From a virus: 36,026 nt of DNA. The position numbers were made by a program, and so were the translations under genes. Below the pieces are notes generated by a model, which made no database searches, had not been told where the DNA came from, and was given only the letters and a program-made list of their open reading frames with translations. This document shows, one piece after another, positions 1 through 29,054 of this stretch (position 1 is the first letter of the stretch; each line of letters begins with the position of its first letter). The stretch covers positions 1 through 36,026 of IMG/VR virus record IMGVR_UViG_3300030419_007643; one strand, written 5' to 3'.

Positions 1-30
1 ATACTGGTCAATAGTTTTAAAATCTTCAAA

Positions 31-61
31 CCCCCTCTCTTCTTAGAGAGGGGGTTTTTTT
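31..61 (+). terminator. Rho-independent terminator
   Basis: A perfect 10-bp stem (CCCCCTCTCT at 31-40, AGAGAGGGGG at 45-54) encloses a 4-base TCTT loop and is followed directly by seven T residues. This is a textbook intrinsic terminator for transcription arriving from the left. The gene it ends lies outside the window; bases 1-30 show nothing I can assign. Confidence 0.93.
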
Positions 62-63
62 AT

Positions 64-91
64 TTAACATCCATTTTACTTATTGTATACT
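64..91 (+). promoter_or_regulatory. Sigma70-like promoter
   Basis: TTAACA (64-69) matches the -35 box at five of six positions. After a 16-base spacer, TATACT (86-91) matches the -10 box at five of six. It sits between the terminator and the first gene, so transcription appears to restart here through host sigma70. This would suit an early or middle unit covering the 59-aa protein, phosphomannomutase and FtsZ-like genes. The assignment is by consensus only. Confidence 0.6.
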
Positions 92-133
92 ATATATGAA
101 ATGAAGTAACAACCATTATATACGGAGGTAATC

Positions 134-313
134 ATGGAACAGAATCAAGCACTTCAACTACTCGTCGCTGGTGTCCAAAAGGGGCAAGCAAATGGGATCT
201 TTTCCCTAGAAGAGTCAGCAGCACTAGCACAGGCAGTCAACGCCTTCCGCCCACCAGAAGAGGCTGTTGAGGAAGAGCCTGAAGAAGCAGATGATGCCGA
301 AGCAGCAGAATAA
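134..313 (+). CDS. Small acidic phage protein, 59 aa
   Basis: This reading frame has a strong ribosome binding site (GGAGGT at 124-129) and ATG at 134, and ends at TAA 311-313. The first two thirds look like an alpha-helical segment rich in Gln, Ala and Leu (ALQLLVAGVQKGQ, SLEESAALAQAVNAF). The last 20 residues are almost all Glu, Asp and Ala. It has no signal peptide, membrane segment or catalytic motif, and I do not recognise a function. It lies just behind the promoter and overlaps the start of the phosphomannomutase gene by about 20 bases, so the two are probably translationally coupled. The ribosome binding site, helical composition and position make it a credible gene despite its size. 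Confidence 0.72.
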   Translation: MEQNQALQLLVAGVQKGQANGIFSLEESAALAQAVNAFRPPEEAVEEEPEEADDAEAAE

Positions 314-1094
314 AACGATTGTTCTTTTTGATTTAGATGGCACTCTAACAGAAGCCAGAAAAGAAATTGATCTTAGTTTGTTAGTCGAACCCCTCGAAAA
401 GCTCATAAGAGTTTCTGAGATTGGTATTCTCACTGGCAGTGGCTTAAATTATGTACAAGAACAAGCCGCTCCTCTTTTCCCATTTCACAGACTTATGGAA
501 AAGATGCACATTCTTCCATGCAACGGTACTGAATATTTTGCACCAATAATGAAGTTGACACACAGTACTGACATGTCAGAAAAGCTAGGGGAGCTTAAAT
601 TTGAAAGCCTCATGAAGAATATCATAGAACTACAACTGCAATGCATCGAAAAGTTTGATATTCCTCTTACCGGACACTTCGTTGATTTTCGAGGATCGAT
701 GATTAATTGGTGTCCAATTGGGAGAAACGCGAGCCAAGAGCAGCGGAATCGATTTAAAGAAATGGACAAATCTCTTGGCATTAGAGAAGAGTTCTTGTCT
801 TTGTTGAGAAAAGAAATCGAGAATAACAAAATAGAGGGAATAACTGCCGTATTAGGCGGGAATACATCGTTCGACATTTACCCAGATAATTGGGATAAAA
901 CATATGCCCTACAACATTTTGAAGATTATGATGTTTACTTTGTAGGCGACAGATGTGAAGAAAATGGTAATGATTATGAAGTTTGTAAAGCTTTGGGAGA
1001 AAGATGCTTCGCTGTAAAAAGCCCAGAAGATACCGCCAAACTTATAAACGAAACTTTGTTACCCATGTTAACAGATTGCCCTGATTGCAATTAG
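291..1094 (+). CDS. Eukaryotic-type phosphomannomutase (HAD superfamily)
   Basis: The protein (267 aa from ATG 291) belongs to the HAD-type phosphomannomutases known mainly from eukaryotes (PMM1/PMM2, about 250 aa), which interconvert mannose-6-P and mannose-1-P. The nucleophile and acid/base pair are in DLDGTLT (Asp14, Asp16). The family block FRGSMINWCPIGRNASQEQR and the later GGNTSFDIYPDNWDKTYAL match the human PMM2 pattern closely, and VGDRCEENGNDYE fits the Mg-binding loop. The product would feed GDP-mannose synthesis, which fits the glycosyltransferase island starting 5.5 kb downstream, although no GDP-mannose pyrophosphorylase is visible. ATG 294 is an equally possible start. A TTG at 267 would lengthen the frame by eight codons but lacks a ribosome binding site. 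Phosphoglucomutase activity is possible. Confidence 0.86.
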   Translation: MMPKQQNKTIVLFDLDGTLTEARKEIDLSLLVEPLEKLIRVSEIGILTGSGLNYVQEQAAPLFPFHRLMEKMHILPCNGTEYFAPIMKLTHSTDMSEKLGELKFESLMKNIIELQLQCIEKFDIPLTGHFVDFRGSMINWCPIGRNASQEQRNRFKEMDKSLGIREEFLSLLRKEIENNKIEGITAVLGGNTSFDIYPDNWDKTYALQHFEDYDVYFVGDRCEENGNDYEVCKALGERCFAVKSPEDTAKLINETLLPMLTDCPDCN

Positions 1095-1112
1095 AAAATA
1101 GGAGGAGACAGC

Positions 1113-2267
1113 ATGTCATTGGATTTAGATATCCCAACTTTAGATATTGAGGATTTTGACCCGGAGTTAGCGGAAGCACAAAAGGTTGATGAAGTTAAAG
1201 ATGAATCTGGCGGAGCACTAACTTACGCCATCATTGGCTCAGGCCAAGGTGGTGGACGGATCGCCAAAGCTTTTTATGATTTGGGGTATCGAAAGACAGT
1301 TGCTTTCAATACTGCAAAATCTGATCTGGCATTGTTGGATCTACCAGATAAACACAAGTTTTATGTGGACTATTATGGAGACCAGGGCGCCGGAAAGAAT
1401 CAGGAAAAAGCTCGAATTGCTTATGAGTCTCGAAGTCAAGAAATCTTCAACAAACTCCGTGAAATCTTTGGTGAGAATATTGACCGCATTATTGTTTGTG
1501 TTGGCGCCGCAGGCGGCACTGGAGGCGGAAGCGTCAATACTCTTGTGGACATTGCAAAACGTTATTTCACCTATGTAGGACGCGAAGATGCTAACGAGCG
1601 AGTTGGAGTCATTGCTTCTTTGCCAACAACTGGCGAAGCAGCCTCTCCTGCTGTTGCCAAGAACGCACACAATCGAATGACGGAATTGTGCGCTTCTGCT
1701 GAAAACGGTGAGTTTGCGCCACTTATTCTTGTCGATAATGATAAAATTAAGAAGCTTTATCCACAACTCACAGTCAAACAGTTTTGGCCGACACTAAATA
1801 ACACAGTTGCTGGCTTGTTTCACATCTTCAATGTGTTGGCAACAAAGAATTCGGATTATACATCTTTTGATCCAGCGGATTACGATACAATCATGAAGAC
1901 AAGGGGTTGCATGATTATGGGCGTTACAACTGTTAAGAATGTCGAGAATGAAACTTCTGTTTCTTTGGCCCTTAAACAAAACCTTGAGAAAACACTTCTC
2001 GCAGGAGGTTTTGATTTGACGACTGCTGAAGGTGCTGCAAGCATTATCGTTGGAGGAACCAAACTTTATGAAGAAGTTGCTGGTCTTATGGATTCTATTG
2101 AGTACGGCTTTGATACTCTTGCTACAATCACTGGGGGTGCCATTATTCACCGAGGAATCTATGAAGATTCTGCCAGGGATAAATTGGTTGCTTACACCAT
2201 GGTTGGTGGGCTAGACGCTCCTGAAAAACGACTTGAGGAGCTTCGAAAGTTTTTACAAATTAAGTGA
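1113..2267 (+). CDS. FtsZ/tubulin-superfamily GTPase
   Basis: This 384-aa protein has the layout of an FtsZ/TubZ-type polymerising GTPase, with a good ribosome binding site (GGAGGA) nine bases before ATG. Residues 1-35 form an acidic leader. The nucleotide-binding T1 loop is GSGQGGGR (42-49), DQGAGKN fits the T3 region, and the tubulin signature is AGGTGGGS (133-140). The T7 catalytic loop is probably FDPADYDTIM, with Asp253 and Asp256 equivalent to the paired acidic residues of FtsZ. Both GTP binding and polymer-dependent hydrolysis therefore look intact. No FtsZ-type C-terminal anchor peptide is seen; the protein ends soon after a helical ERLEELRKFL. Phage tubulins are known to centre or move DNA in jumbo phages, and bacterial FtsZ drives division. 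Which role applies here is unknown. Confidence 0.87.
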   Translation: MSLDLDIPTLDIEDFDPELAEAQKVDEVKDESGGALTYAIIGSGQGGGRIAKAFYDLGYRKTVAFNTAKSDLALLDLPDKHKFYVDYYGDQGAGKNQEKARIAYESRSQEIFNKLREIFGENIDRIIVCVGAAGGTGGGSVNTLVDIAKRYFTYVGREDANERVGVIASLPTTGEAASPAVAKNAHNRMTELCASAENGEFAPLILVDNDKIKKLYPQLTVKQFWPTLNNTVAGLFHIFNVLATKNSDYTSFDPADYDTIMKTRGCMIMGVTTVKNVENETSVSLALKQNLEKTLLAGGFDLTTAEGAASIIVGGTKLYEEVAGLMDSIEYGFDTLATITGGAIIHRGIYEDSARDKLVAYTMVGGLDAPEKRLEELRKFLQIK

Positions 2268-2274
2268 CAATGCA

Positions 2275-2604
2275 ATGAATAAGACGCTTCATTATGTTTG
2301 TGAACCAAATAATTTTAGCATCTCTTTGTCTATTTCATATAACAAAATAGCAACTGTGGCAATTTATAGCAACGAAGAACCTTTGTGTCGTAGAAAGTTT
2401 TTGATGGCCGATGGCGGCGCAGAAAAAGAAGAGATAAATGAGCTAGTTGCCATGTTTTGTGACTTGTTTATAGAAAATCAACTTAGGGAACAAAATTTTG
2501 AAGGTGAAATGGACGGAAGTGAATTTATTATACAAACAGCTAGATCTTCTTTGAGAAAAACGTACAACAAGCTTGGATTACCTGTGTGGCATCGGCGGCC
2601 CTAA
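2275..2604 (+). CDS. Hypothetical protein downstream of FtsZ-like GTPase
   Basis: This 109-aa protein has no family I recognise. ATG 2275 lies seven bases after the stop of the FtsZ-like gene. A TTG at 2233 would add 14 codons inside that gene but has no ribosome binding site, so I prefer the ATG. The N-terminal half is predicted beta (FSISLSISYNKIATVAIYSN), followed by an acidic helical stretch (EKEEINELVAMFCDLFIENQL) and a basic C-terminus. The tight spacing suggests co-expression with the GTPase, and a regulator or adaptor of the filament is possible but only inferred. Its last 27 bases overlap the 3' end of the protease gene on the opposite strand. Confidence 0.6.
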   Translation: MNKTLHYVCEPNNFSISLSISYNKIATVAIYSNEEPLCRRKFLMADGGAEKEEINELVAMFCDLFIENQLREQNFEGEMDGSEFIIQTARSSLRKTYNKLGLPVWHRRP

Positions 2605-3354
2605 CCAATTGATTTTTGGCACTAATTTCGGTGCCATCTCTCTATTGATAGTTTCCTTAATAAAATTAATCATGTCTTCGTGCGTGGGTGAAACAGAAAC
2701 CATCGGAAAGTATATATTTACCGAATGTATCATTCCTACCAAATGGCCTTTATCATTAAAAATGGGAGAACCAGAACTACCCCCAGCAGCGGGTATTGAA
2801 TAATATGCTGCTTTTTTATCTTCTACATTTCCCATAAAAAAGCCTTCTAATAGTGGAACAGTGTTTTTGTAAAAGATACCAACTGGTGCAGCAATGTTGA
2901 AAACCCTGTCTCCAATGTTTGGCATCTTGGTGCTAATTCTAGCTATTTTGTTTTTTAGATTTTTTGCAAACAGAATACATACATCAAAATCAAAATTCAT
3001 GTTAATGATATTGCTAAGATGCCTCTCTTCGTTTAATGTCACAGATTCGATAATCACTTCATACCCTATAACTCCAGGCTGTTTTGTCATATCGTCACTA
3101 TCACACACATGAGCAGCAGTCAGAATATAGGATCCTTGTTCGCCACCAGCAATCACAACTCCTGAACCAGTGGTCATCATTGGCTCTGTTGAGCAATAAC
3201 TGCTGTTTTCGTCAGTCTTACAGGAAAAAACATTTACAGTTTTTTCTATATTTACAAAAGTTTCTCGGGTATCGAGAGGTATGTTGATGTTTTGATTTGC
3301 ACAAGATGTGGTCAAAAACAATTGTATTAATAGGGCTGTTATTAAGGTGCGCAT
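2578..3354 (-). CDS. Exported trypsin-like serine protease, probable lipoprotein
   Basis: The 258-aa product starts with a short basic, hydrophobic signal (MRTLITALLIQLFL) ending in TTSC, so Cys18 could be lipidated. The lipobox is imperfect because Leu is at -4 rather than -3. The chymotrypsin-fold catalytic triad is complete: His82 in TAAHVC, Asp124 in NFDFDVCIL and Ser194 in GGSSGSP. This places it in the trypsin-like S1 family, acting in the periplasm or at the envelope. Three further Cys residues (45, 54, 84) may form disulfides. There is no PDZ domain. It is the only gene on this strand, surrounded by + strand phage genes, and looks like a moron acquired separately. Its start has no clear Shine-Dalgarno sequence. 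The function could be processing of envelope or virion proteins, or defence against host or rival factors. Confidence 0.85.
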   Translation of the reverse strand: MRTLITALLIQLFLTTSCANQNINIPLDTRETFVNIEKTVNVFSCKTDENSSYCSTEPMMTTGSGVVIAGGEQGSYILTAAHVCDSDDMTKQPGVIGYEVIIESVTLNEERHLSNIINMNFDFDVCILFAKNLKNKIARISTKMPNIGDRVFNIAAPVGIFYKNTVPLLEGFFMGNVEDKKAAYYSIPAAGGSSGSPIFNDKGHLVGMIHSVNIYFPMVSVSPTHEDMINFIKETINREMAPKLVPKINWLGPPMPHR

Positions 3355-3356
3355 GT

Positions 3357-3364
3357 TATAAATA
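3357..3364 (+). promoter_or_regulatory. T4-late-promoter-like TATAAATA box
   Basis: The octamer TATAAATA is the T4 late-promoter consensus recognised by gp55. It lies about 93 bases before the phoH start, just beyond the 5' end of the protease gene. A gp55-type sigma factor is encoded later in the window, so the box has a candidate reader. In AT-rich DNA a chance match is possible. Confidence 0.4.
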
Positions 3365-3374
3365 GATAAATTTA

Positions 3375-3396
3375 TTATAAATATTTTTCTTTTTTT
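3375..3396 (+). promoter_or_regulatory. TATAAATA plus T-rich tract, possible late promoter
   Basis: A second TATAAATA (3376-3383) runs directly into TTTTTCTTTTTTT. Nearly the same string, with one A missing, occurs at 18096-18115 after the late sigma gene. The repetition in two intergenic sites argues for a regulatory element, most simply a gp55-dependent promoter for phoH. On the opposite strand the same bases contain TATAAT (3379-3374), which could serve the protease gene. Confidence 0.5.
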
Positions 3397-3456
3397 ACAT
3401 GTTAAAATGTTTTAAAATAATCTATATATTATTGACAGCCCCAAGGCGGGAATAAT

Positions 3457-4770
3457 ATGGCAAAGAAAACCTACGTTTTTGATACTAGCGTCTGCTTGAC
3501 AGATTACAACTCTATTCGATCATTTGATAACAACGATGTTGTTATTCCATTAAAAGTATTAGATGAAATTGATGGAAACAAAAAGCGCCAAGATGGTGCA
3601 GGAACAAATGCGCGTAGAATTATCAAACTTTTAGATTCATTCAGAAGCAAAGGAAGCCTTCAAAAGGGCGTAAGAATTGAAAAGGGAAAGGGGATCATAT
3701 TTGTTAGAAACTATGATCCTTCAATCTTACCAAGCGATCTAGATCTTGCATGTCCTGATAATCAAATTGTAGCAACAGCTTTTACAGAACAGCACAATAA
3801 TCCTAAAAGAAAAGTAATCGTTGTCTCTCGCGATATTAATATGCGAGTAAAGTGCGATGCTTTGGGTCTGCTATCAGAAGATTACAACGAAAGCCAAGTT
3901 GTTGGCCGTGCAGAAGACGTTTATAAGGGATTTACCAAATACTTGGTTGATGATCAAATTATTGACCAGTTCTATGTTGATGAAAACATATACGTTGATG
4001 AAGAAGAGATCAGACTGTACGCTAACCAATTTGTCATGCTCGTGTCTAATTCAAACGAAAAGAAGACAGCCTTAGCGAGATTTGTCAATTATCAGCAACC
4101 TCTATCTAGAATCCATGAAAGAGAGATTTGGTCTTTGCGACCAAAGAATAAAGAACAAAGTTTTGCAATTGATCTTCTTATGGATCCAAAAGTTGCTGTT
4201 GTGTCCCTAATTGGCAAGGCTGGCTCTGGTAAAACCCTCCTGGCTATCGCTGCTGGACTTGAACAAAGTATTGGGAACTCAAATAACAGCAGATATCGTC
4301 GCCTAATAGTCTCCAGGCCAATTCAGCCTCTGGGCAAAGACTTGGGCTATTTGCCGGGGACTCTAGAAGAAAAAATGTCTCCTTGGTTGGCGCCAATCCA
4401 AGACAACTTAGAATATTTGATGGGAAATGATATCATGACCCTCAAAGATCATCTGCTTCGCGGAACAATCGAGATCGAAGCTCTTACCTATATAAGAGGA
4501 AGATCTATCTCTAATGCTTACATTATTATTGATGAAGCCCAAAACTTAACCAGACATGAAGTAAAAACTATCTTAACAAGAGTGGGAGAAAATACTAAAA
4601 TCATATTTACAGGAGATATAGACCAAATTGATAACATCTATGTTGATGGAACTTCAAATGGTCTTACATATGCTGTGGAAAAATTAAAGCAGTATGAAGT
4701 ATCAGCACATGTCTCTTTGAGAAAAGGTGAAAGAAGTAAAGTTGCTACATTAGCAGCAAACATATTATAA
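3457..4770 (+). CDS. phoH: PIN-PhoH family ATPase/RNase
   Basis: The 437-aa protein has the two-domain PhoH2/YlaK layout. An N-terminal PIN ribonuclease domain (about 1-140) carries acidic positions in VFDTSV, VLDEIDGNKKR and SRDINMR. A linker follows, then a PhoH-type P-loop ATPase. Walker A is GKAGSGKT (253-260) and Walker B is IIIDEAQN, with Asp359 and Glu360. PhoH2 proteins unwind and cleave RNA, and PhoH genes are very common in marine phages, often linked to host stress or phosphate limitation, although their role in phages is not settled. The length matches bacterial PhoH2 (about 430 aa). Upstream is the 100-bp divergent region with the late-promoter-like boxes; a GGCGGG stretch precedes ATG. 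It probably heads a unit running through the nuclease gene. Confidence 0.95.
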   Translation: MAKKTYVFDTSVCLTDYNSIRSFDNNDVVIPLKVLDEIDGNKKRQDGAGTNARRIIKLLDSFRSKGSLQKGVRIEKGKGIIFVRNYDPSILPSDLDLACPDNQIVATAFTEQHNNPKRKVIVVSRDINMRVKCDALGLLSEDYNESQVVGRAEDVYKGFTKYLVDDQIIDQFYVDENIYVDEEEIRLYANQFVMLVSNSNEKKTALARFVNYQQPLSRIHEREIWSLRPKNKEQSFAIDLLMDPKVAVVSLIGKAGSGKTLLAIAAGLEQSIGNSNNSRYRRLIVSRPIQPLGKDLGYLPGTLEEKMSPWLAPIQDNLEYLMGNDIMTLKDHLLRGTIEIEALTYIRGRSISNAYIIIDEAQNLTRHEVKTILTRVGENTKIIFTGDIDQIDNIYVDGTSNGLTYAVEKLKQYEVSAHVSLRKGERSKVATLAANIL

Positions 4771-4779: not shown

Positions 4780-5112
4780 ATGAGCGAAACACAACAAGAT
4801 AATTGTCAAGTTAATTATAGCATAGAAGATGTCGGAGAAGCCTCTGATTTAGAAAACATTGTAGTCCCCAATTCCTCTCTGAAAAAAATGGTGATTAATT
4901 ACGTGGGCCAAATTGTTAAGCCTCTTGATGATGAGGTTACAGTGGAAATGGTCATCTCTGTTTTGGCAGACGAATTTCCAGAAGTTATCATGCCATTGGC
5001 TGAAGAAAACTGGATGAGAGGATATGAACAAGCTTTGGCTGATGTTGATAAAGGCCAAGAATTATGGGCTCAAGACCAAGCCGCCCAAGCTCAGGAGGGG
5101 GAAGATGAGTAA
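4780..5112 (+). CDS. Small acidic hypothetical protein
   Basis: This 110-aa protein is strongly acidic, with no membrane segment or catalytic motif. Its middle (about 35-85) looks helical and globular: KKMVINYVGQIVKPL, then VTVEMVISVLADEFPEVIMPLAEENWMRGYEQAL. The last 25 residues are a Gln/Ala/Glu tail. It begins nine bases after phoH with a weak AAGG ribosome binding site, and its TAA overlaps the next ATG (TAATG at 5110-5114), showing translational coupling to the metallopeptidase candidate. I cannot name a function. A small transcription or virion-assembly factor is possible but nothing in the sequence proves it. Confidence 0.72.
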   Translation: MSETQQDNCQVNYSIEDVGEASDLENIVVPNSSLKKMVINYVGQIVKPLDDEVTVEMVISVLADEFPEVIMPLAEENWMRGYEQALADVDKGQELWAQDQAAQAQEGEDE

Positions 5113-5801
5113 TGGACGACTATATAAAAAACAAGGCATTAGAGGCGCAAGAGAACTCTAGTGAGAAATATCTCTTTAATGTTCCCATCATTATATTAGA
5201 TTCCTTCATAAATAAAATCAATCTCGACTTTGTTACGAAAAAGATAGAAAGCTTATTGCCAAAAACTCTTTTTAGAAACATCGAGGCAATATACATTGGC
5301 AATTTTGATGTGCTAAACAGCAGAGGTGTTAATGCAGCTTATACGGATGGCGTAATATATCTAACAAACGTGCAGGACGATGAAGCGGATATCATTGATG
5401 ATATTGTTCATGAGATTGCTCATGCTGTTGAAGAGATGTACGGGATGCACATTTATTCTGACGATAGAATCGAGAGTGAATTTATTGGCAAAAGAAAAAG
5501 GCTTTTCGATATGCTAAAAGCCGCTGGCCACACCGGCGCCTCTTTGAGCAGCTTTTTGAATCCTGAATATTCCAGAGAATTTGACGAATTTCTGTACCAA
5601 GAAGTTGGATATCCAGCTTTGGTGAACTATTGTTCTGGTTTATTCTTGAGTCCGTATGCTATCACTTCAATTCGCGAATACTTCGCACGAGGATTTGAGC
5701 ATTATTTTCTAAAAAATGATAAAAAGTACTTGATTAAATTGTGTCCTCAGTTATACTATAAGATAGATCAGATGTTTGATAGTATTAACTCAGGTGAATA
5801 A
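5112..5801 (+). CDS. Putative zinc metallopeptidase (HExxH)
   Basis: The 229-aa protein carries HEIAH at residues 100-104 inside a helix (DDIVHEIAHAVEEMYG), the zinc-binding and catalytic signature of gluzincin/metzincin-like peptidases. A third ligand is not obvious; the later EFDEFLYQEVGY and REYFARGFEHYF stretches contain acidic and His residues that could serve, the latter resembling the EYFA pattern of some phage-associated M-type peptidases. There is no signal peptide, so it would act in the cytoplasm, for example on a virion precursor or host protein. It is coupled by a one-base overlap to the upstream gene and followed two bases later by the nuclease gene. Protease activity is inferred from the motif and its helical context only. 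Confidence 0.65.
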   Translation: MDDYIKNKALEAQENSSEKYLFNVPIIILDSFINKINLDFVTKKIESLLPKTLFRNIEAIYIGNFDVLNSRGVNAAYTDGVIYLTNVQDDEADIIDDIVHEIAHAVEEMYGMHIYSDDRIESEFIGKRKRLFDMLKAAGHTGASLSSFLNPEYSREFDEFLYQEVGYPALVNYCSGLFLSPYAITSIREYFARGFEHYFLKNDKKYLIKLCPQLYYKIDQMFDSINSGE

Positions 5802-5803
5802 GC

Positions 5804-6568
5804 ATGACCCACATATCATTTTCGGCTCTTAAGATTTGGAACGAATGTTCCTATAAGCACAAATTAGTCTATATTGACCAAATTAAAGCGTTTAAAGGCA
5901 ATGCATACACTGCTTTTGGTACCGCACTCCACGATGTGTGCGAAAAGAAGCTTTTAGGCGAGAATATGGACGATAAAGACTATTTTTTAACTCGTTTTAA
6001 AGAGGTTCTCGCAGAAATTCCCGAGGAACATAACGAAAAGCTTGTAGAAGATATGAAACTGCAAGGCGTTAGGATTATTCCTCACATAATGCCGGCACTA
6101 AACAAATACTTTAAAGAGTACGAAGTTGTATCTGCAGAAGAGGATATCTTTGAGGTAGTGGATGATTATAAGTTTGCTGACTTCAATTTCAAAGGCTTCA
6201 TCGATCTGGTACTAAAAACACCAGACGGAAAATACCACATTATCGATTGGAAGACATGTTCTTGGGGCTGGGATGCTCGTAGAAAAAACGATAAGATGAC
6301 AACTTATCAGTTAACCTTTTATAAACACTTTTTCGCGAAGAAACACAACATCGACCCAGAAAACATTGAAACTCACTTTGCTCTTTTGAAGAGAACCGCG
6401 AGAAAAGAAAATGTTGAATTCTTTAGAGTAACAAGTGGCCAAACTAAAATTAATAATGCACTTAACTTACTAGAGAATGCTTTGTATAATATAGAAAAAA
6501 ACAACCACATTAAGAATCGGTTGTCCTGTTCGAAATGTGAATTCTACAAAACGGTGAATTGTCCATGA
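5804..6568 (+). CDS. PD-(D/E)XK nuclease, RecB/Cas4-like, probable Fe-S cluster
   Basis: This 254-aa protein has the core of the RecB-family exonucleases. GTALHDVCEKK gives the conserved His and helix, FKGFIDLVL the metal-binding Asp134, and IIDWKT the Asp148-x-Lys150 pair. One Cys near the N-terminus (Cys15 in IWNECSYKHK) and three at the C-terminus (Cys242, 245 and 253 in CSKCEFYKTVNC) match the four-Cys arrangement that holds a 4Fe-4S cluster in AddB and Cas4 proteins. It probably degrades or trims DNA ends during phage recombination, replication or host DNA breakdown. It is not part of a CRISPR locus: no repeats or other cas genes are nearby. Its stop overlaps the first glycosyltransferase start by four bases (ATGA). 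Confidence 0.88.
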   Translation: MTHISFSALKIWNECSYKHKLVYIDQIKAFKGNAYTAFGTALHDVCEKKLLGENMDDKDYFLTRFKEVLAEIPEEHNEKLVEDMKLQGVRIIPHIMPALNKYFKEYEVVSAEEDIFEVVDDYKFADFNFKGFIDLVLKTPDGKYHIIDWKTCSWGWDARRKNDKMTTYQLTFYKHFFAKKHNIDPENIETHFALLKRTARKENVEFFRVTSGQTKINNALNLLENALYNIEKNNHIKNRLSCSKCEFYKTVNCP

Positions 6569-7827
6569 AAAAAATTAAGGTATTAACTCTGGGTGACCAT
6601 CCACTAAGCCCATCGGGCGTTGGAACTCAAACAAAAAATGTAATTAAAGCTCTTATTGACACCGGTCGATATAGGTTCATTTCTCTAGGCGGTGCCGTTA
6701 AGCACCATGACTACAAACCAATGAAAATTGATCCATATGGAAACGATTGGGTTATACAACCAGTGGATGGGTATGGTACCCCAGAACACGTTAGATCTCT
6801 TTTGAGGACTGAGAAGCCCGATATTCTGTGGTTTATGACAGATCCTAGGTTTTATGAATGGCTGTGGTCAATTGATAACGAGATTCGTTCTTTAGTGCCT
6901 ATGGTGTATTACCATGTTTGGGATAATTATCCATATCCGAAGTTTAATCGACCATTTTATCAATCAAATGATCACATTGTTGCAATTTCTAAACTTACTC
7001 ACGATATCGTTCAAACTGTAACTCCGGAAGTAGACTCGTCCTATATCCCTCATGCAGTAGACTCAGAAGTCTTTAAGGTACTCCCGGAAAGTGATGTGTT
7101 GCAATTCCGCAAAGAGCACTTTAGGGACGAAGAAAATCCTGATAGAGTTATGTTCTTTTTCAACAGCAGAAACGCGAGAAGAAAAATGAGCGGTTCTATT
7201 GTGCTGTGGTTTAAAGAGTTCTTGGACATTGTTGGGCATGACAAAGCATGTTTGTTGATGCACACTGATCCAAAAGATCCACACGGGCAAGATTTAAACG
7301 CAATTCTGGACGATTTTTCTTTGCTAAATGGCCAAGTTCTCTTTTCAACTGAAAAGGTTGACCATCGACTGCTGTCGTTTATGTACAATATGGTTGATTG
7401 CACAATTAACATCTCTGATGCAGAGGGGTTTGGACTTTCAGCACTAGAATCACTTTCTTGCGGAACACCAATTATTGCGAACATGACAGGTGGTCTGCAG
7501 GAACAAGTAACGGATGGGAAGACAGAATTTGGAGTAGCCCTACAGCCAGCTTCCAAGGCAATTATTGGCTCTCAGGGTGTGCCATATATTTACGAGGATC
7601 GAGTCAGTAAAGAAGACTTCATTAAAGCTTTGCTTAAGATTTACGAGATGTCCAGTTCAGAACGAAAAGAACTTGGATCTATGGGCCGGCAACATGTTAT
7701 GAAGAACTATAACTTTAAAGACTTTAATGAAAAGTGGATTAATCTTATGGACAGCGTACATGAAAAGTACGGTTCTTGGGAAAATAGAAAGAATTACAAA
7801 TCTTGGGAGATATCAGAGGTAGTATGA
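6565..7827 (+). CDS. GT-B glycosyltransferase (GT4-like) 1
   Basis: The 420-aa protein opens with a Rossmann strand and a donor-side loop (KVLTLGDHPLSPSGVGTQTKNV). The C-terminal nucleotide-sugar domain carries the retaining GT-B E-x7-E motif, Glu287 and Glu295 in DAEGFGLSALE, followed by SCGTPIIANMTGG. This is typical of GT4 family enzymes. The sugar donor cannot be read from the sequence. I start it at ATG 6565, inside an ATGA overlap with the nuclease stop; a TTG at 6559 would add two codons. It is the first of three related glycosyltransferases in a row and defines the left edge of the sugar island. Likely substrates are phage virion glycans or a host surface glycan. Confidence 0.9.
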   Translation: MKKIKVLTLGDHPLSPSGVGTQTKNVIKALIDTGRYRFISLGGAVKHHDYKPMKIDPYGNDWVIQPVDGYGTPEHVRSLLRTEKPDILWFMTDPRFYEWLWSIDNEIRSLVPMVYYHVWDNYPYPKFNRPFYQSNDHIVAISKLTHDIVQTVTPEVDSSYIPHAVDSEVFKVLPESDVLQFRKEHFRDEENPDRVMFFFNSRNARRKMSGSIVLWFKEFLDIVGHDKACLLMHTDPKDPHGQDLNAILDDFSLLNGQVLFSTEKVDHRLLSFMYNMVDCTINISDAEGFGLSALESLSCGTPIIANMTGGLQEQVTDGKTEFGVALQPASKAIIGSQGVPYIYEDRVSKEDFIKALLKIYEMSSSERKELGSMGRQHVMKNYNFKDFNEKWINLMDSVHEKYGSWENRKNYKSWEISEVV

Positions 7828-9083
7828 AAAAGAAGATTTTAGTACATGGACCGGCCCTTAGTAGAAGTGGTTACGGTGAACAAACACGCTTTGCGATTCG
7901 TGCCTTGAGGGCTCACGAAGATAAATTTGATATCTATTTGTCAAATATCAATTGGGGCGCCACCGGCTGGCTTTATGAGGATAACGAGGAAAGGCAGTGG
8001 ATGGATCAAACGCTTATCAAAAGTCAACACTATATGATGGAAAAGAAGCCGTTTGATATCTCTCTGCAAGTTACAATTCCAAATGAATGGGAACGTTATG
8101 CGCCGGTTAATATCGGATATACTGCCGGGATTGAGACTACAAAGATATCTCCAAAGTGGTTGGAAAAAACTCCTGTTGTTGATAAAATGATCGTTGTTTC
8201 TGAGCATGCTAAATATGGATTTGACAATACGGCGTACCAAACAAAAGACGCCAACGGCAATGTTGGCTCCATTAAAAATACAACTCCAGTGGATGTGGTG
8301 GGTTATCCTGTGAGGGATTTTGAACCAGAACCTCTAGACTTAAACTTGACAACAGATTTTAACTTTTTGGCAGTCGCTCAATGGGGTCCAAGAAAGAACC
8401 TAGATAATACTATCTTGTGGTTTGTTGAAGAGTTCCTTGATAACGAGAATGTTGGCTTGGTTGTGAAAGCCACTATCAAAAGCGGCTGTACAATGGACAG
8501 GTTTTGGGCCAAAAAAAGAATTGAAAACACGCTTGCTAAATATCCTGAAAGAAAATGTAAAGTATATCTTCTCCATGGCGATATGACTGATGGCGAAATG
8601 ACTAGTCTTTATAGGCACCCAAAGATCAAGTCTTTGGTAACCTTGACGCATGGCGAAGGTTATGGCCTTCCAATCTTTGAGGCGGCATATAACAGTTTGC
8701 CGATTATTGCTCCAAACTGGAGTGGTCAAGTAGATTATCTTAGCATGCCGATTAAAAGCAAGGGCAAAAAGAAGAGAAATACCTCGATGTTTTCCAAGGT
8801 CGATTATGATATAAGACCAGTGCAAAAAGAGGCTGTTTGGAAAGGTGTGTTGGAAGCCGATTCTATGTGGTGTTTCCCAACTCAGGGGAGCTATAAGATT
8901 AAATTGCGAGATATGTACAAAAACCACAAAGATCATTTGTCCCGAGCTAGAAAGCTTGAAAAGCATATTCGAACAAAACACGCTCCTCAAGTTTTGTATG
9001 ACCAGTTCGTGGACTCGATCCTAAAGGCTCTGCCAGAAAGCCAAGTCACCAATGTTGTAGACGGAGAGTTGGTTGTACTATGA
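7824..9083 (+). CDS. GT-B glycosyltransferase (GT4-like) 2
   Basis: This 419-aa protein shares the layout of its upstream neighbour: an N-terminal loop in VHGPALSRSGYGEQTRFAIRAL and an E-x7-E motif, Glu278 and Glu286 in HGEGYGLPIFE, followed by NSLPIIAPNWSGQVDYL. A strand plus WGPRKN (around 190-200) begins the second Rossmann domain. It is a retaining glycosyltransferase of unknown donor and acceptor. ATG 7824 is preceded by AGAGGT and overlaps the previous stop by four bases (ATGA), so translation is coupled. Its similarity in plan to the genes on both sides suggests the three arose by duplication and now add successive sugars. Confidence 0.9.
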   Translation: MKKKILVHGPALSRSGYGEQTRFAIRALRAHEDKFDIYLSNINWGATGWLYEDNEERQWMDQTLIKSQHYMMEKKPFDISLQVTIPNEWERYAPVNIGYTAGIETTKISPKWLEKTPVVDKMIVVSEHAKYGFDNTAYQTKDANGNVGSIKNTTPVDVVGYPVRDFEPEPLDLNLTTDFNFLAVAQWGPRKNLDNTILWFVEEFLDNENVGLVVKATIKSGCTMDRFWAKKRIENTLAKYPERKCKVYLLHGDMTDGEMTSLYRHPKIKSLVTLTHGEGYGLPIFEAAYNSLPIIAPNWSGQVDYLSMPIKSKGKKKRNTSMFSKVDYDIRPVQKEAVWKGVLEADSMWCFPTQGSYKIKLRDMYKNHKDHLSRARKLEKHIRTKHAPQVLYDQFVDSILKALPESQVTNVVDGELVVL

Positions 9084-11056
9084 GGGTAGTGTATTGTGCC
9101 CAATTTCGAGATTATTCTGGTTATGGTGTTGCAGCTAGGGGATACTTAAAATCTTTAGATGAATTTTTGCAACAAAATCCGCAAGCAATTGATTTAAAAA
9201 TATACTCTGCCGTTGTGGGGAACAACCCCCTTTTATCGGACGAGGAAATCTCACTTCTTAAAAAATATGAATTTAAGAATGATGGTGAAATTAACGAATA
9301 TTTGAATAGCGATTACTTGTTCGTTTGGCATATGCCTCCTGCAATGATTGCTTTTTCGGATGAAAAGTTTAGCCCTAGCCCAAATTGTTCCCCGAGCATT
9401 AAAAAGCTTTGGAAGGCATCTTCTTCCAATATCAATCTTTCTGTTTGGGAAACAAATAAGATTCCTCGTGAATATGTGCGAGCACATGAGTACTACAATC
9501 CAAACGCCATTATTACATGCTCAGAGTGGAATAAAGAGGCTTTTGATGAATACATTGATTGCCACATTGTCCCTCATCTAATTGAAGAACCAAGTAAAAA
9601 ACTAGAAAGTTCTGAATTGCCATACGACATGGACAACACCTTTACAATCTTTTCCATGTCTCAGTGGTCTCGAAGAAAAGGGTTTGATGTATTGATTCAA
9701 GCGTTTGTGTCAGAGTTTGGTAGCCAAGATGATGTGCGCCTTCTTTTGAAAACATATCCTAGCGCAGAAGCCAACATGGAGACAATTCAAGAGGAGATCA
9801 AGTTTTACAGAAGCATCATTCGAATGCCAAATAAAGCAAACAATATCATTCTCATTCCTGGTTTTGTGCCTGATGAGAAGATTAACTGGTTTTATGACAA
9901 GTGTGATGCGTTTGCTCTTTTTTCTCGCGGAGAAGGGTTTAGTCTTCCAATCGCAGAAAGTTTGATGAGGGCCAAGCCCGTTATTGTTCCCAAGGAAGGT
10001 GGGCATATAGATTACATATCCGATGAAGCAGCCTTCTTTGTTGACGGGCAGTGGGATACTTGTATATGTCCACAACCTCCATACGATGTTGACGGAGAAT
10101 GGTACCAGTGTAATATTACTAGTGCCAGAAAACAGCTTAGAAAAGCTTACAATATGTGGAAAGAAGGGACACTAAAAGCCGCAGGGCAAAAAGGTCGAGA
10201 GCACATTCTAGCCAGCAACTATGATAAGCTTTCTGTAGGTCAGCGTTTCTATGATGTTGCAAAAAAAGTTTACAAGCCAACAGAGACTAAAATTGCAAAG
10301 ATTAAGAAACAAGTTGCTCTCAAGGGAAATTTAGAAGAAAAGCTAAAAGTTCTACGCAATTCTTTCGAGGGTGAAACATGTTATATCTTGAACTGTGGAC
10401 CGTCTATTAAAGATATTCCAGAAAATATTATAAAGGACAAGTTAAAAGACAAACTCGTTTTTTCGATCAAACAGGCGTATAACAAATTTCCTGAAATAAC
10501 TGATTTTCATTTTTTCAACTGTGCAAACTTACCAGCATTGAAAGGCGAGTATTGGCAAGAACATTATAACTATGGAAATAATGAACCATTTGTTGTTGCT
10601 AGTAGCAATTACAACATTGGCATGCGCTGGAGCCCTTATCAAAAACATGATGTGTTTTTTAAGGTGCCAATTAGGACAGAGATTAATAATGAATTTGTAA
10701 CTAAAACCAAAAAGTTTGAAGATTTTCTAATCGAAAAGAGCGCAGAACGCCCCTGTGGGCCTGGAATTATGTATGAGACTGTAATTTATATGGCTGTGCA
10801 TCTAGGAGTTAAAAAAATCGTTGCAATTGGTTGGGATTTGAGTAATAATAATCCTAACAAGCAAGACGATTATGAACATTTTTATGGAAATACCGATAAG
10901 CTTTTCAACAGAGGTGATATTTTGCCTTGGGAAGTTAAGGTAACTTGTGAGGCGTCGAAAGATCTTTATGAGTGGTTGTCTGATAAAGGTGTTGAGCTTG
11001 AATTAATTTCTAACAAAAGTTCCTTATATGAAGGAATTCCGAGGGTAAAACTATGA
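9080..11056 (+). CDS. Glycosyltransferase fused to sialyltransferase/DUF115-like domain
   Basis: The 658-aa protein joins two enzymes. Residues 1 to about 400 are a GT4-like GT-B glycosyltransferase with the N-terminal SGYGVAARGYL loop, SQWSRRKGFD and the E-x7-E motif (Glu285, Glu293 in RGEGFSLPIAE). After a Lys-rich linker, residues 430-658 begin with CYILNCGPS (434-442) and carry GVKKIVAIGWD (to Asp586). The same pair of motifs occurs in GT42 sialyltransferases (such as Cst-I/II) and in the DUF115/MAF proteins involved in transfer of nonulosonic acids. The gene is followed four bases back by a NeuB gene (ATGA overlap), so sialic-acid-type transfer fits the context. The bifunctional reading is inferred from motifs, and the C-terminal specificity is unknown. 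Confidence 0.85.
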   Translation: MRVVYCAQFRDYSGYGVAARGYLKSLDEFLQQNPQAIDLKIYSAVVGNNPLLSDEEISLLKKYEFKNDGEINEYLNSDYLFVWHMPPAMIAFSDEKFSPSPNCSPSIKKLWKASSSNINLSVWETNKIPREYVRAHEYYNPNAIITCSEWNKEAFDEYIDCHIVPHLIEEPSKKLESSELPYDMDNTFTIFSMSQWSRRKGFDVLIQAFVSEFGSQDDVRLLLKTYPSAEANMETIQEEIKFYRSIIRMPNKANNIILIPGFVPDEKINWFYDKCDAFALFSRGEGFSLPIAESLMRAKPVIVPKEGGHIDYISDEAAFFVDGQWDTCICPQPPYDVDGEWYQCNITSARKQLRKAYNMWKEGTLKAAGQKGREHILASNYDKLSVGQRFYDVAKKVYKPTETKIAKIKKQVALKGNLEEKLKVLRNSFEGETCYILNCGPSIKDIPENIIKDKLKDKLVFSIKQAYNKFPEITDFHFFNCANLPALKGEYWQEHYNYGNNEPFVVASSNYNIGMRWSPYQKHDVFFKVPIRTEINNEFVTKTKKFEDFLIEKSAERPCGPGIMYETVIYMAVHLGVKKIVAIGWDLSNNNPNKQDDYEHFYGNTDKLFNRGDILPWEVKVTCEASKDLYEWLSDKGVELELISNKSSLYEGIPRVKL

Positions 11057-11877
11057 GCGTACATGTAATTGCTGAAATTGGCATCAACCACAATGGCTGT
11101 TTGGATACAGCTAAAAAACTAATTGATATGGCCGCAATGGCTGGCTGCGATTCGGTTAAGTTTCAAAAAAGAAATCCTGATGTTTGTGTTCCGGAACATC
11201 AAAAGAATGTTCTTCGCGACACTCCTTGGGGCACTCAGTCCTACTTGGCTTACAAAAAACGTATTGAGTTTGAAAAAAGAGAATATGACGAAATTGATAT
11301 TTACTGTCGCCAACAAGGGATTGAATGGTCTGCTTCTCCTTGGGATTTGGATAGCCTTGAATTTTTGGCACAGTATAACGTCCCGTATATCAAGATCCCA
11401 TCTGCCATGCTAACAAACCATGAACTTTTGAAAGCATCCAGAGATACTGGAAAGAAAGTAATTCTTTCAACCGGTATGAGCACAATCGAAGAGATTGATG
11501 AAGCTGTTGAGATCCTAAAAGGCTCTGAGTTTGCTCTTTTGCACTGTAACTCGACATATCCTGCAAAACTCAAAGAATTGAACCTAAACTGCATCAAAAC
11601 ACTTAAAGAAAGATATAATTGTGAGGTGGGGTATAGTGGACATGAGTTTCGCTTAGGAACTTCTGTTGCTAGTGTTTATTTGGGTGCGACAATTGTTGAA
11701 CGCCACATTACACTAGATCGACAAATGTGGGGAACCGATCAACTTTCTTCTGTTGAGCCACAAGGTCTCATTAAGTTGGTTAGGGGTATCCGTGAACTAG
11801 AGGTGGCTTTGGGCGATGGTATCAAAAGAGTCACAGAAGACGAGAAGCCAATTCGAAAGAAACTGAGAGGTTATTAA
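11053..11877 (+). CDS. neuB: NeuB-type nonulosonic acid synthase, compact form
   Basis: The 274-aa enzyme is a TIM barrel of the N-acetylneuraminate synthase family, which condenses phosphoenolpyruvate with an N-acyl hexosamine to give a nine-carbon keto sugar acid. EIGINHNG near the N-terminus and SVKFQK are family motifs. The two metal-binding His are His197 (GYSGHE) and His218 (VERHITLD), 21 residues apart as in meningococcal NeuB. The protein ends right after the barrel and lacks the C-terminal SAF (antifreeze-like) domain of typical 340-350-aa NeuB, in which that domain helps close the neighbouring active site. It could use the SAF domain of the second NeuB gene product or work without one. 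Whether the product is Neu5Ac, legionaminic, pseudaminic or another acid cannot be told. Confidence 0.88.
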   Translation: MSVHVIAEIGINHNGCLDTAKKLIDMAAMAGCDSVKFQKRNPDVCVPEHQKNVLRDTPWGTQSYLAYKKRIEFEKREYDEIDIYCRQQGIEWSASPWDLDSLEFLAQYNVPYIKIPSAMLTNHELLKASRDTGKKVILSTGMSTIEEIDEAVEILKGSEFALLHCNSTYPAKLKELNLNCIKTLKERYNCEVGYSGHEFRLGTSVASVYLGATIVERHITLDRQMWGTDQLSSVEPQGLIKLVRGIRELEVALGDGIKRVTEDEKPIRKKLRGY

Positions 11878-12611
11878 TGTTTGGAGTTTTTGATCACCAC
11901 CGATCTCGTGGCACGTTCGACCAATGGGCTTCCGCAGATTGCAATGAAATGTTTTTTCAATTCGTAAAAGATCTTTACAAGGATAATGAAATCGTTTATG
12001 AAAAACTTCCTGAATTTGAAAACTATAAAGATTCAACGGTTTTGATCGTAGGCGGTGGCCCGTCTACAAGAGAACTGAATTTAAACGAACAGGAGTACGA
12101 TTATTTGTGGTCCATAAACCATTTCTTCAAAAACGACAAGTTTAAAGATGTGAAAGCTGACTTGCTCATGATTATGGGAGAGCCTGATATTGAAGCCCCC
12201 GAGTTTGTAGAATACAGAAACAAACATAACCCAGCAGTTGGGTTTGAAATCCATGATCGATGGAATGGTCATGAGTTTGACAACTACGAAAAGTATTTTT
12301 GTATGCACACGCGGTTTTATGGCAGGCTCGGCGGCGGCGCAAGAATGCTTTTGTTTGCTGCTGCTCTGGGTTGCAAAAAAGTAATCTTCACAGGATTCGA
12401 CGGCCCAGAAGCAATCTTTGATGGCGACCATGCTTTTGAGCCTGGGAAAACCACCCTGCCATCTATTTTCAACCACATGATGCCCGGTGAAATTGCCCTA
12501 ACTTGGAAAATGCAATATGATTATTTCTGGGATTACGTTCAAGACTTGTACCCCGAAACGCAGTTTGAGAATATAGGAGGGGGAGAAAAATATCATGAAA
12601 GAATTAAATGA
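11877..12611 (+). CDS. Sialyltransferase/DUF115-like protein
   Basis: This 244-aa protein starts in a TAATG overlap with NeuB. It shows VGGGPST (58-64) after a predicted strand and LGCKKVIFTGFDG (to Asp175), the same motif pair as the C-terminal domain of the upstream fusion protein and as GT42 sialyltransferases or DUF115/MAF proteins. The N-terminal 50 residues differ from those families, and HDRWNGHEFDNYEKYF lies between the motifs. A role in transferring the CMP-activated acid made by its neighbours is the simplest reading. A related non-transferase role cannot be excluded, since the overall similarity is limited to the nucleotide-binding fold. Its 3' end overlaps the cytidylyltransferase start by 17 bases. 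Confidence 0.72.
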   Translation: MFGVFDHHRSRGTFDQWASADCNEMFFQFVKDLYKDNEIVYEKLPEFENYKDSTVLIVGGGPSTRELNLNEQEYDYLWSINHFFKNDKFKDVKADLLMIMGEPDIEAPEFVEYRNKHNPAVGFEIHDRWNGHEFDNYEKYFCMHTRFYGRLGGGARMLLFAAALGCKKVIFTGFDGPEAIFDGDHAFEPGKTTLPSIFNHMMPGEIALTWKMQYDYFWDYVQDLYPETQFENIGGGEKYHERIK

Positions 12612-13287
12612 TATTGCCGTTATCATTCAAGCTCGCCTAGGTTCTCAAAGAATTCCATCAAAAATGTTAAGACCATTTGCCGGCACAACCCTGATGGACA
12701 TTACTATTGAAAAAATATTAAATTCAAAAGTTATTCCAAATGAAAACTTTTTTGTGTCAGTCTATGAACCAGAGCTTGTAGAGGTATGTGACAAGTGGGG
12801 AGCCAACATTTTTCATAGAAGTGAAAAGTCTGCTTTTTCAGAGGGCACTCCGATGACTGAAATGTATGAGTGGTGGGACAAGTTGCCTTCTTTTAAATAT
12901 TGCGTTTTGGTAAATGCATGCGCACCGTTTCTTAAGATTGAAACAATTGACAATTTTGTATTAGAATATACTAAGACAGATTCTGATGGTTTGTTTGGTG
13001 TAATGGAAAAGAAAAACTATTTTTGGAACTCTAACAATGAATTGATAACACCATGGCCCGAAGGGCAGGATGTTATGAACACTAAATTTGTTGGTAAAAC
13101 ATATGAGGCAGCACACTGCCTGTATGCCGGAAGAATGGATAAGATTGGTGACAATATTTGGATGGGAGATTTCCAAAAACCTGGAGACATTGAATTATTT
13201 CCAATGGCTGAAGAAGAGTGTCTAGATATCGATTATGAATGGCAGTTTAAAATGTGTGAATCTGTCTATAAGGGCTTGCAACAATAA
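12595..13287 (+). CDS. neuA: CMP-nonulosonic acid cytidylyltransferase (NeuA/SpsF-like)
   Basis: The 230-aa protein has the nucleotidyltransferase signature IIQARLGSQRIPSKMLRPFAG (11-31), where the Arg and Lys residues bind CTP phosphates, and the acceptor-side stretch VLVNACAPFLKIETID. Its length equals bacterial NeuA and SpsF (about 230 aa). NeuA couples CTP and sialic acid to CMP-sialic acid; SpsF-like enzymes do the equivalent for related sugars such as KDO or spore-coat glycans. Flanking NeuB genes on both sides favour a nonulosonic acid substrate. An AGGAGGGGG stretch precedes ATG 12595, although about 13 bases away. The protein ends with DIDYEWQFKMCE, the DIDxxxD-type end common in NeuA. 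Confidence 0.88.
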   Translation: MKELNDIAVIIQARLGSQRIPSKMLRPFAGTTLMDITIEKILNSKVIPNENFFVSVYEPELVEVCDKWGANIFHRSEKSAFSEGTPMTEMYEWWDKLPSFKYCVLVNACAPFLKIETIDNFVLEYTKTDSDGLFGVMEKKNYFWNSNNELITPWPEGQDVMNTKFVGKTYEAAHCLYAGRMDKIGDNIWMGDFQKPGDIELFPMAEEECLDIDYEWQFKMCESVYKGLQQ

Positions 13288-13299: not shown

Positions 13300-14760
13300 A
13301 TGTTTTATATTTTCGAAATGGCTAATAATCACCAAGGTAGCGTAGAGCATGCCAAAAAGATTGTTGATACTTTTGCATCGTTGTCGGAAGCGATGAATAT
13401 TAATGCAGGCATTAAACTGCAATTTAGACAACTTGATAGCTTTGTGCATAAGAGCTTCAAAGACTCAGATCTCAAGTTTGTAAAAAGGTTTAACTCTACT
13501 AGATTGTCCAAAGAAGAGTTTGGGGAGATTGTAGAGCATATCCGCGAAAGAAACCTTACAACTATTGCGACCCCTTTTGATAACGAATCTTTGCCATGGT
13601 TGGAAGATTTGAACGTTTCAGTTGTAAAGATTGCTAGCTGCTCTATTGATGATTGGCCATTGTTGGAAGAAGTGTGCAAGATCAATAAAAAAATTATCAT
13701 CTCCACTGGCGGGGCTAGCATCGAGCATCTTAAAAAGGTGCATGATTTGTTTAAACACAATGAAAGAGATTTTGCTTTTATGCACTGTGTTGGAGAATAC
13801 CCGACAGCAATCGAGAGCGCAAATCTGAATCGCATTACAGCACTAAGAAAAGAATTCCCAGATATTCAAATTGGGTTTTCAACTCATGAAGCGCCATCGG
13901 AACCAACTTTAGCACCAGCAGCCCGAGCCTTGGGGTGCACAATTCTAGAAAAACACGTAGCAGTGCCTACAGATACGATTGGCATCAACGCTTATTCTTG
14001 CACTGTAGACGACATGAGGAGTGTCATTTCTGAAGTTGAGTTGGTTGAGAAGGCTTTGTTTGGCAAACCAAAGAACGAAAAAGAAACTCTTACAAACCTC
14101 AAGAGAGGTATTTATCTCAAAAAGAACATTTCTGCAGGAAAGAAGATTAGTAGAGATGATTTTTATTATGCAATGCCTGTCCAAGAAGGGCAATTCAATG
14201 CATCTTCGGTCTTGGCATTGGAAGGCCGGGTTGCAATAAACAATCTGAAAGCTCACAATCCCTTGACCAGCGTCGATGTTGTCACAAATGTTGACAGCGA
14301 AAAGATTGACCACATTGTTGAAATGGCCAAAGTTCTGCTGGAGAACGCTAATGTTCCTCTTAGTGGTAATGAATCTGCAGAACTTTCTGCACACTATGGT
14401 TTAAACAATTTTGCTGAATTTGGTGCCATGATCATTGACAAGGTTAATAGAGAATACTGTAAAAAGATTATTGTTAATCTACCAAACCAAACTCATCCCG
14501 TCCACCATCATATCAAAAAGGAAGAAGCTTTTGAATTGTTGCATGGGGATTGTACTTTGGATTTGAACGGAAAAACGGTACAGATGACAAAAGGAAAGCC
14601 CGTTGTTATCGCAAGGGGTGTCAAACACTCCTTCAGAACCAAAAACGGCTGCGTGATCGAAGAGATTTCAACAACACACATCCCAGGAGATTCAATTTAT
14701 GAGGATCCTCAAATTAATTCTCTCAAACTTTCTGACAGAAAGATAAAGATCAATTTTTAA
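13300..14760 (+). CDS. NeuB-type synthase fused to SAF and cupin domains
   Basis: The 486-aa protein is a three-domain version of NeuB. Residues 1-260 are the TIM barrel with EMANNHQGS near the start, IKLQFRQ, and the metal-binding His196 (FSTHE) and His219 (LEKHV). Residues about 270-335 are a SAF domain (KRGIYLKKNISAGKKISRDD and MPVQEGQFNASSVLALEGR). Residues about 370-470 form a cupin with HPVHHHIKKEEAFELLHG and RGVKHSF, supplying several potential metal-binding His. Such fusions occur in bacterial surface-glycan clusters, where the cupin may isomerise or protect a sugar substrate; that role is inferred. The gene starts 12 bases after the cytidylyltransferase with an AGAGG ribosome binding site. 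Finding a second, longer NeuB in the same cassette is unusual. Confidence 0.88.
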   Translation: MFYIFEMANNHQGSVEHAKKIVDTFASLSEAMNINAGIKLQFRQLDSFVHKSFKDSDLKFVKRFNSTRLSKEEFGEIVEHIRERNLTTIATPFDNESLPWLEDLNVSVVKIASCSIDDWPLLEEVCKINKKIIISTGGASIEHLKKVHDLFKHNERDFAFMHCVGEYPTAIESANLNRITALRKEFPDIQIGFSTHEAPSEPTLAPAARALGCTILEKHVAVPTDTIGINAYSCTVDDMRSVISEVELVEKALFGKPKNEKETLTNLKRGIYLKKNISAGKKISRDDFYYAMPVQEGQFNASSVLALEGRVAINNLKAHNPLTSVDVVTNVDSEKIDHIVEMAKVLLENANVPLSGNESAELSAHYGLNNFAEFGAMIIDKVNREYCKKIIVNLPNQTHPVHHHIKKEEAFELLHGDCTLDLNGKTVQMTKGKPVVIARGVKHSFRTKNGCVIEEISTTHIPGDSIYEDPQINSLKLSDRKIKINF

Positions 14761-17111: not shown

Positions 17112-17428
17112 CGACAGTAGTGTTGATTATTGCTTTAACGATTTCCATAGCCTTGAATGTATTGGGGGTTTGGTACGTTCGAAAGTTGTTACAAAGCTTC
17201 ATTCTCAATTCTGAAAATGTTGAAAACTTGCTTTTTGACATAGAAAAATACGAAGAGCACTTGACTTCAGTACACTCCTTGGAAACGTATTATGGCGATG
17301 AGACATTGGGTGGGCTAATGAGGCATACAGAAGCATTAGCGAATAATCTGAATCAATATAGAGAAGTGTATGCCATAGTTGAAGAAGAGGAAGAAGTTGA
17401 CTACTACGAGAACGAAACCAAAAGCTAA
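17108..17428 (+). CDS. Small membrane-anchored hypothetical protein
   Basis: This 106-aa protein has a single N-terminal membrane segment, roughly residues 4-23 (VVLIIALTISIALNVLGVWYV), followed by a helical soluble part and a very acidic tail (EEEEEVDYYENE). There is no cleavage site, so it should stay in the inner membrane as an anchored protein. Orientation cannot be fixed: the Arg-Lys after the segment suggests the C-terminal part is cytoplasmic. It starts in an ATGA overlap with the zinc-ribbon gene, and its acidic tail codons double as the start region of the late sigma gene. Function unknown. Confidence 0.75.
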   Translation: MTTVVLIIALTISIALNVLGVWYVRKLLQSFILNSENVENLLFDIEKYEEHLTSVHSLETYYGDETLGGLMRHTEALANNLNQYREVYAIVEEEEEVDYYENETKS

Positions 17429-29024: not shown

Positions 29025-29054
29025 AACACTATTTATCGTTAAGGAGATTTTGTA

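Follow-up and report, generated by a model that had tools for sequence, protein, structure and literature searches.

A tubulin-superfamily GTPase shared by T4-like phages and Planctomycetota: a candidate DNA-coupled filament

Introduction

Which task might a tubulin-like GTPase perform in a phage that builds a T4-like baseplate? The question is raised by a gene in a stretch of 36,026 nucleotides, hereafter the window, which comprises bases 1-36026 of a 59,501-base IMG/VR virus record. Polymerisation with the T7 loop acting across the subunit interface is typical of the tubulin superfamily, and one of its members, TubZ, moves plasmid DNA. PhuZ is known to move phage DNA (PMC4244570). The initial annotation of the locus had proposed a filament-forming phage tubulin and, as its possible adaptor, the product of the adjoining 109-aa gene. 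Based on the analysis presented here, we give a slight preference to a cytomotive tubulin that is encoded by the phage, belongs to a family of its own and would form filaments coupled to DNA.

Results

The window encodes an intact tubulin-superfamily protein

The tubulin gene starts with ATG behind a strong GGAGGAG ribosome-binding site (Table 1). Pfam matches of its product to Tubulin PF00091 (E 5.3e-8) and Tubulin_2 PF13809 (2.2e-6) lie barely above the respective cut-offs, and its PHROG match, 17961, has no assigned function. An AlphaFold2 model computed with 38 family sequences (pLDDT 88.8, pTM 0.87) has its nearest PDB fold in TubZ of B. thuringiensis (2xka, 1.8e-21), followed by FtsZ and CetZ at about 1e-18. 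The profile ranking against PDB was likewise headed by TubZ (4ei7, 7e-18), ahead of the archaeal CetZ group (2e-13 to 1e-11) and FtsZ (about 1e-10). The Pfam match, the predicted fold and many phage relatives bear out the assignment to a tubulin-family GTPase from a phage. The open reading frame is not a chance one because relatives with 40-82% identity are present in more than 50 viral contigs and because dN/dS, where measurable, is about 0.03; the gene is real, intact and strongly selected.

Alignments confirmed that the nucleotide-binding loops and the T7 acidic pair are kept. The window protein retains T1-T4, T6 and the T7 pair D253/D256, and conservation extends across the family (T1 GSGQGGGR, T3 GAGK, T4 GAAGGTGGGS, T6 DNDK, T7 FDPADY), with D253 invariant and D256 absent from one member only. 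Three hallmarks of the superfamily are present, namely a T4 signature of the GGGTG[ST]G type, the Rossmann GTPase fold and the T7 acidic residues. Through D253/D256, each subunit would presumably induce its neighbour to hydrolyse GTP, and the residues found would permit polymerisation of the T7 type. The phage tubulin is therefore presumed to act as a GTPase and to polymerise.

Throughout the family, only one short helix follows the last core strand before the chain stops, in agreement with the initial statement that the C-terminal anchor peptide of FtsZ is missing. At the opposite end, the leader had been described as acidic. Its acidity is evident (12 D/E vs 2 K/R within the first 33 residues), but a merely acidic leader it is not, since a conserved motif common to the Planctomycetota homologues had been overlooked. 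Almost every viral member of the main clade has this motif, as do most Planctomycetota members; the outer viral clade has lost it. It reads LDIPTLDIEDF in the window protein and LPTLDLEQYEP in bacteria. Its conservation and predicted disorder suggest that it may serve as a docking site.

Table 1. Positions of the tubulin transcription unit, its elements and the baseplate genes in the window
Feature	Position	Strand	Basis or remark
Strong intrinsic terminator ahead of the unit	28..57	+	pattern scan
Sigma70-like promoter match TTAACA-16-TATACT, likely start of the unit	64..91	+	10/12 consensus bases; region total not above chance
HAD phosphatase, eukaryotic-type phosphomannomutase family, upstream gene of the unit	291..1094	+	PF03332, E 5e-43
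Tubulin/FtsZ-superfamily GTPase gene	1113..2267	+	384 aa; Pfam PF00091/PF13809, AF2 fold
N-terminal motif LDIPTLDIEDFDP (P-x-[LI]-x-[LIM]-E), codons 5-17	1125..1163	+	predicted disordered, pLDDT 42-52; candidate docking site
T4 loop (tubulin signature) GAAGGTGGGS	1503..1532	+	residues 131-140; alignments
T7 loop YTSFDPADYD with D253 and D256	1857..1886	+	alignment of the family
109-aa protein, family of unknown function	2275..2604	+	relatives only in L002, L004, L142-L146
Terminator-like hairpin closing the unit	2617..2636	+	pattern scan
Two T4-type baseplate wedge genes	28638-29024, 29055-30860	+	PHROGs 261/43 and 219/10646

The phage is of the T4 type

The presence of a T4-like baseplate in the same genome was substantiated by the wedge proteins encoded at 28638-30860. 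Some relatives possess a gp23-type capsid protein, which together with the baseplate argues against a nucleus-forming phage. This bears on the possibility that the protein builds, like PhuZ, a spindle for centring a replication compartment or for moving capsids. PhuZ belongs to the same superfamily, and the structure search in BFVD matched the window protein to PhuZ from Pseudomonas phage Noxifer (E 1e-10, TM 0.52). However, the window tubulin is far closer to TubZ and CetZ than to PhuZ, and its T4-like setting is unlike that of the nucleus-forming Chimalliviridae, so that we regard a spindle of this kind as quite unlikely.

Several other genes of the window were recorded. Three glycosyltransferases, two NeuB-type synthases, a cytidylyltransferase and MptE-like proteins encoded at 6559-13287 and 13300-14760 form a surface sugar cluster of the sialic/pseudaminic-acid type in a phage. 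The small protein encoded at 5112-5801 has relatives in 13 contigs and matches the ATLF metallopeptidase fold only weakly (7e-5, under the curated cut-off); it is probably an ordinary zinc peptidase. A late sigma factor (PHROG 234) is encoded at 17379-18101, and a 2079-aa protein at 22376-28615, 5′ of the baseplate genes, had no PHROG match when searched as two halves.

The tubulin gene has no universal partner

In the window, the tubulin gene is a probable member of a unit that comprises a 59-aa ORF, the HAD phosphatase of the phosphomannomutase type, the tubulin and the 109-aa gene and that is bounded by a terminator and a promoter-like site on one side and a terminator-like hairpin on the other. 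A T4 late promoter was not found ahead of the tubulin gene. The sequence TATAAATA is placed only upstream of phoH, where two T4-late-promoter-like boxes lie just 5′ of that gene (3357-3364 and 3376-3383); the four copies in the window are not above chance.

As initially stated, seven bases separate the tubulin stop codon from the ATG of the 109-aa gene, and both genes are probably co-transcribed in the window. The proposal that the 109-aa product is a filament adaptor was not supported, as the two genes are adjacent in the window only and most tubulin-bearing relatives are devoid of the 109-aa gene. Its family was found in the window, L002, L004 and five other contigs (L142-L146), and the AlphaFold2 model of the protein (pLDDT 74) has no significant fold match in PDB. 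In L002, the tubulin is followed by a small basic gene, ClpP, the 109-aa homologue, a protease and PhoH. The order in L144 is a divergent tubulin, the basic gene, a 350-aa gene, the 109-aa homologue, the protease and PhoH, and L146 contains the same block with no detectable tubulin. Two genes thus intervene in L002 and L144, and a fixed or dedicated partnership is rejected; loss of the two intervening genes best accounts for their adjacency in the window. The syntenic tubulin of L144 (2265-3389) is a far more diverged replacement with the T1 loop GVGGGGG and a match of about 1e-39 to the family profile.

Elsewhere in the family, no neighbouring gene is fixed. Judged by eye, the tubulin gene of other clades lies close to the terminase gene, or to genes for primase and DnaE; in another phage clade (L033, L034, L050), it adjoins genes that looked like those for primase and the alpha subunit of DNA polymerase III. 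One phage subclade has a small secreted-looking protein with a haem-type CxxCH motif directly 3′ of the tubulin (L029:2769-3119). A phage tmRNA gene with the tag ANTDTYSEYALAA lies beside the tubulin locus of L028 (8521-8845, minus strand) and may help to identify the host.

In several relatives, L029 and its kin, a lytic transglycosylase gene is located just 5′ of the tubulin, as might be expected if the protein formed a static scaffold or a filament bound to the membrane, with a role in, e.g., lysis or remodelling of the envelope. Yet this neighbour is confined to one subclade, the tubulin has no visible membrane anchor and its conserved T7 pair argues for turnover, all of which makes a static scaffold improbable.

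Relatives are numerous among uncultivated viruses

A scan with the window protein detected the family in 13 viral contigs, a number that rose to more than 60 after profile scans. None of the 50,697 phage records of the INPHARED collection matched the window protein. Two of its relatives matched gp138 of phage G at 22-25% identity, the sole match in this collection, and close relatives in isolate phages are thereby dismissed. The nearest viral structure in BFVD is A0A6J5RW92 from an uncultured Caudovirales (E 2.8e-33, 26% identity). No description of this tubulin family was found in the literature searched, and the tubulin family of the marine T4-like phage is apparently undescribed, although annotated distant viral relatives do exist.

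Planctomycetota encode the closest cellular members

The closest cellular members of the family are chromosomal genes of Planctomycetota. One scan of GTDB species genomes, which was seeded by short peptide patterns that diverged members elsewhere could escape, returned 13 loci, all from this phylum (Phycisphaerae, Phycisphaerales, Sedimentisphaerales) and 44-53% identical to the phage protein. The family is present in 4 of 392 genomes drawn from the phylum and in 25 of the 148 genomes of one order. A prophage origin was rejected for two loci: that of L055 is located on a 2.96 Mb chromosome close to folK/dNK, panC and lgt, and that of L057 has pheT nearby.

Planctomycetes are described as lacking FtsZ (PMC5147048; PMC11929135), and how Planctomycetota divide and segregate their DNA without this protein is an open question (PMC5147048). 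We scanned the 148 genomes of the order with Pfam tubulin, a procedure that detected 13 of 14 known genomes as a control. Every match above the cut-off fell into a family-bearing genome, and the matches listed were the family genes; a single additional genome gave a weak match of 21.6 bits. Because the above-cut-off matches belong to this family, no canonical FtsZ was found in these metagenome-assembled and possibly incomplete genomes, which is consistent with its absence from the order.

Many bacterial copies carry a tail of approx. 50-270 residues ahead of the motif, in which K, R, A and T abound; K+R make up approx. 25-45%, and D/E number at most three. Such tails look like those of histone H1. 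A second, tandem paralog (L057:11233-13029, L063:6708-8288) contains a C-terminal AAA_lid_14 domain (E 2e-17), and the L063 copy additionally has a Fis-type helix-turn-helix (HTH_8, 6e-5) fused to the tubulin. This paralog is also encoded at L065:8878-10581, and its T3 and T4 loops are altered in all three contigs. Tails and fusions point to a putative contact with DNA. Phage copies have neither the basic tail nor the helix-turn-helix and begin at or near the motif.

The kinship between phage and bacterial proteins brings in the main rival explanation, according to which the phage protein co-polymerises with, or mimics, a putative host tubulin of the family and captures host factors through its motif, so that host division or growth is rewired. 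Such a role would fit proteins that are about 50% identical and share the N-terminal motif, as well as a family that is the only Pfam tubulin found in that order. The FtsZ C-terminal peptide is DIPxFL, and the LDIPTLD of the motif bears some likeness to it, but the FtsZ peptide has a basic end that the motif lacks. Moreover, the phage protein retains all catalytic loops, which exceeds the needs of a simple inhibitor. On balance, we consider interference with host division unlikely.

The direction of transfer

With the outer viral clade as root, the trees grouped the Planctomycetota sequences into one clade (100/97) amid many viral lineages. It lies beside L053 (90/82) or, once long rows are omitted, the L044 group (77/80). 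Viruses were united on one side of a branch in only 0-3% of bootstrap trees, and a single viral clade was not rejected by the AU test (p 0.351). Transfer from phage to host is accordingly favoured but not shown, with the reverse direction not excluded by the AU test. A tentative scenario, to which we assign somewhat less than even chances, is that a family which arose in tailed phages was acquired once by an FtsZ-less lineage of Planctomycetota and gained histone-like tails and DNA-binding fusions of the transcription-factor type; as the sole tubulin-type protein found there, it would act directly on the nucleoid.

Discussion

How would a DNA-coupled tubulin filament operate in the infected cell? 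Monomers would bind GTP via the loops T1-T6 and join head to tail, and hydrolysis, triggered by D253/D256 of one subunit in the next, would render the filaments dynamic. The conserved hydrophobic-acidic motif in the flexible N-terminus may dock a cargo adaptor. DNA is the likeliest cargo because bacteria have the same motif joined to an H1-like tail and because, in a paralog, a sigma54-activator lid and a Fis-type helix-turn-helix are attached to the tubulin. The primase- and polymerase-like neighbours in the clade of L033, L034 and L050 also speak for it. The precedent of TubZ and PhuZ is in keeping with this assumption, by which a DNA-related role is carried over to the phage from bacterial homologues whose own function is putative. 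Counter-evidence comes from the phage copies, which have no basic tail or helix-turn-helix, from the lack of a TubR-like gene or iteron array next to the window tubulin and from the changing gene neighbours within the family. In the phage, a separate protein would link the filament to DNA, and the filament might place or segregate replicating phage genomes.

Taken together, the data suggest that the family provides filaments for moving or holding DNA and has been passed between viruses and bacteria. An apparently undescribed tubulin-superfamily protein that includes candidate DNA-binding parts is harboured by some Planctomycetota, a phylum known to lack FtsZ, and its family is widespread in T4-like phages of marine origin. 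The family adds a phage tubulin beyond the nucleus setting of jumbo phages, offers in its N-terminal motif a testable candidate site for cargo docking and is a possible case of a viral cytoskeleton adopted by cells.

Fold, T4 signature and the T7 D-x-x-D are common to the window protein and FtsZ. Nevertheless, the protein scores 56 bits vs an equivalog cut-off of 295 for TIGR00065 and has neither an FtsZ_C Pfam match nor a C-terminal linker or peptide. Judged by these sequence features, it is not an FtsZ. A recent copy of host FtsZ without phage relatives, the alternative named in the initial annotation, is rejected in view of the many viral relatives and the score far under the equivalog cut-off.

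FtsZl1 and FtsZl2 are side branches of the FtsZ superfamily (Makarova and Koonin 2010), and FtsZl1 occurs in Planctomycetes, too (PMC2875224). In FtsZl1, a T6-H7 region cannot be recognised, and vWA genes are found alongside (PMC2875224). In contrast, the window family keeps T7, its PF13809 match is partial (27.6 bits vs a cut-off of 27) and vWA genes were not encountered among the scanned neighbours of the window tubulin.

Among phage-borne tubulins, gp138 of phage G, a 'putative FtsZ-like cell division protein', is very distant, has no N-terminal motif and reads FDKNDL at T7. A0A6J5RW92 is named 'FtsZ Cell division GTPase' by automatic annotation only. PhuZ of the nucleus-forming jumbo phages is also a phage tubulin but comes from another virion type, and its BFVD match (TM 0.5-0.55) is weak and well behind TubZ; genes for partners of PhuZ were not seen.

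The closest relative by profile and fold is TubZ/RepX of the type III partition systems of Bacillus plasmids, with which the T7 pair is shared. A weak match to the TubZ-like C-terminal domain PF22453 in one bacterial member (2e-4, under the cut-off) is a further likeness. The differences are an identity of only approx. 18-21%, the short C-terminus of the family and the N-terminal motif of the phage family, which is not known from TubZ. Features of a tubRZ operon were not found near the tubulin, where the Pfam scan identified the HAD phosphatase and the 109-aa gene as neighbours and no TubR-like gene. A TubZ partition cassette with iterons was not found; window positions 1-3460 contain neither iterons nor centromere repeats. 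In a tree meant to place the family among FtsZ, TubZ and CetZ, the PDB sequences were very long-branched. As part of the best overall explanation, we narrowly favour a separate family that belongs with TubZ and CetZ rather than with other parts of the superfamily. Because no TubR gene or iteron array adjoins, we do not claim membership in the TubZ group; our claim is that the protein would work like a cytomotive tubulin.
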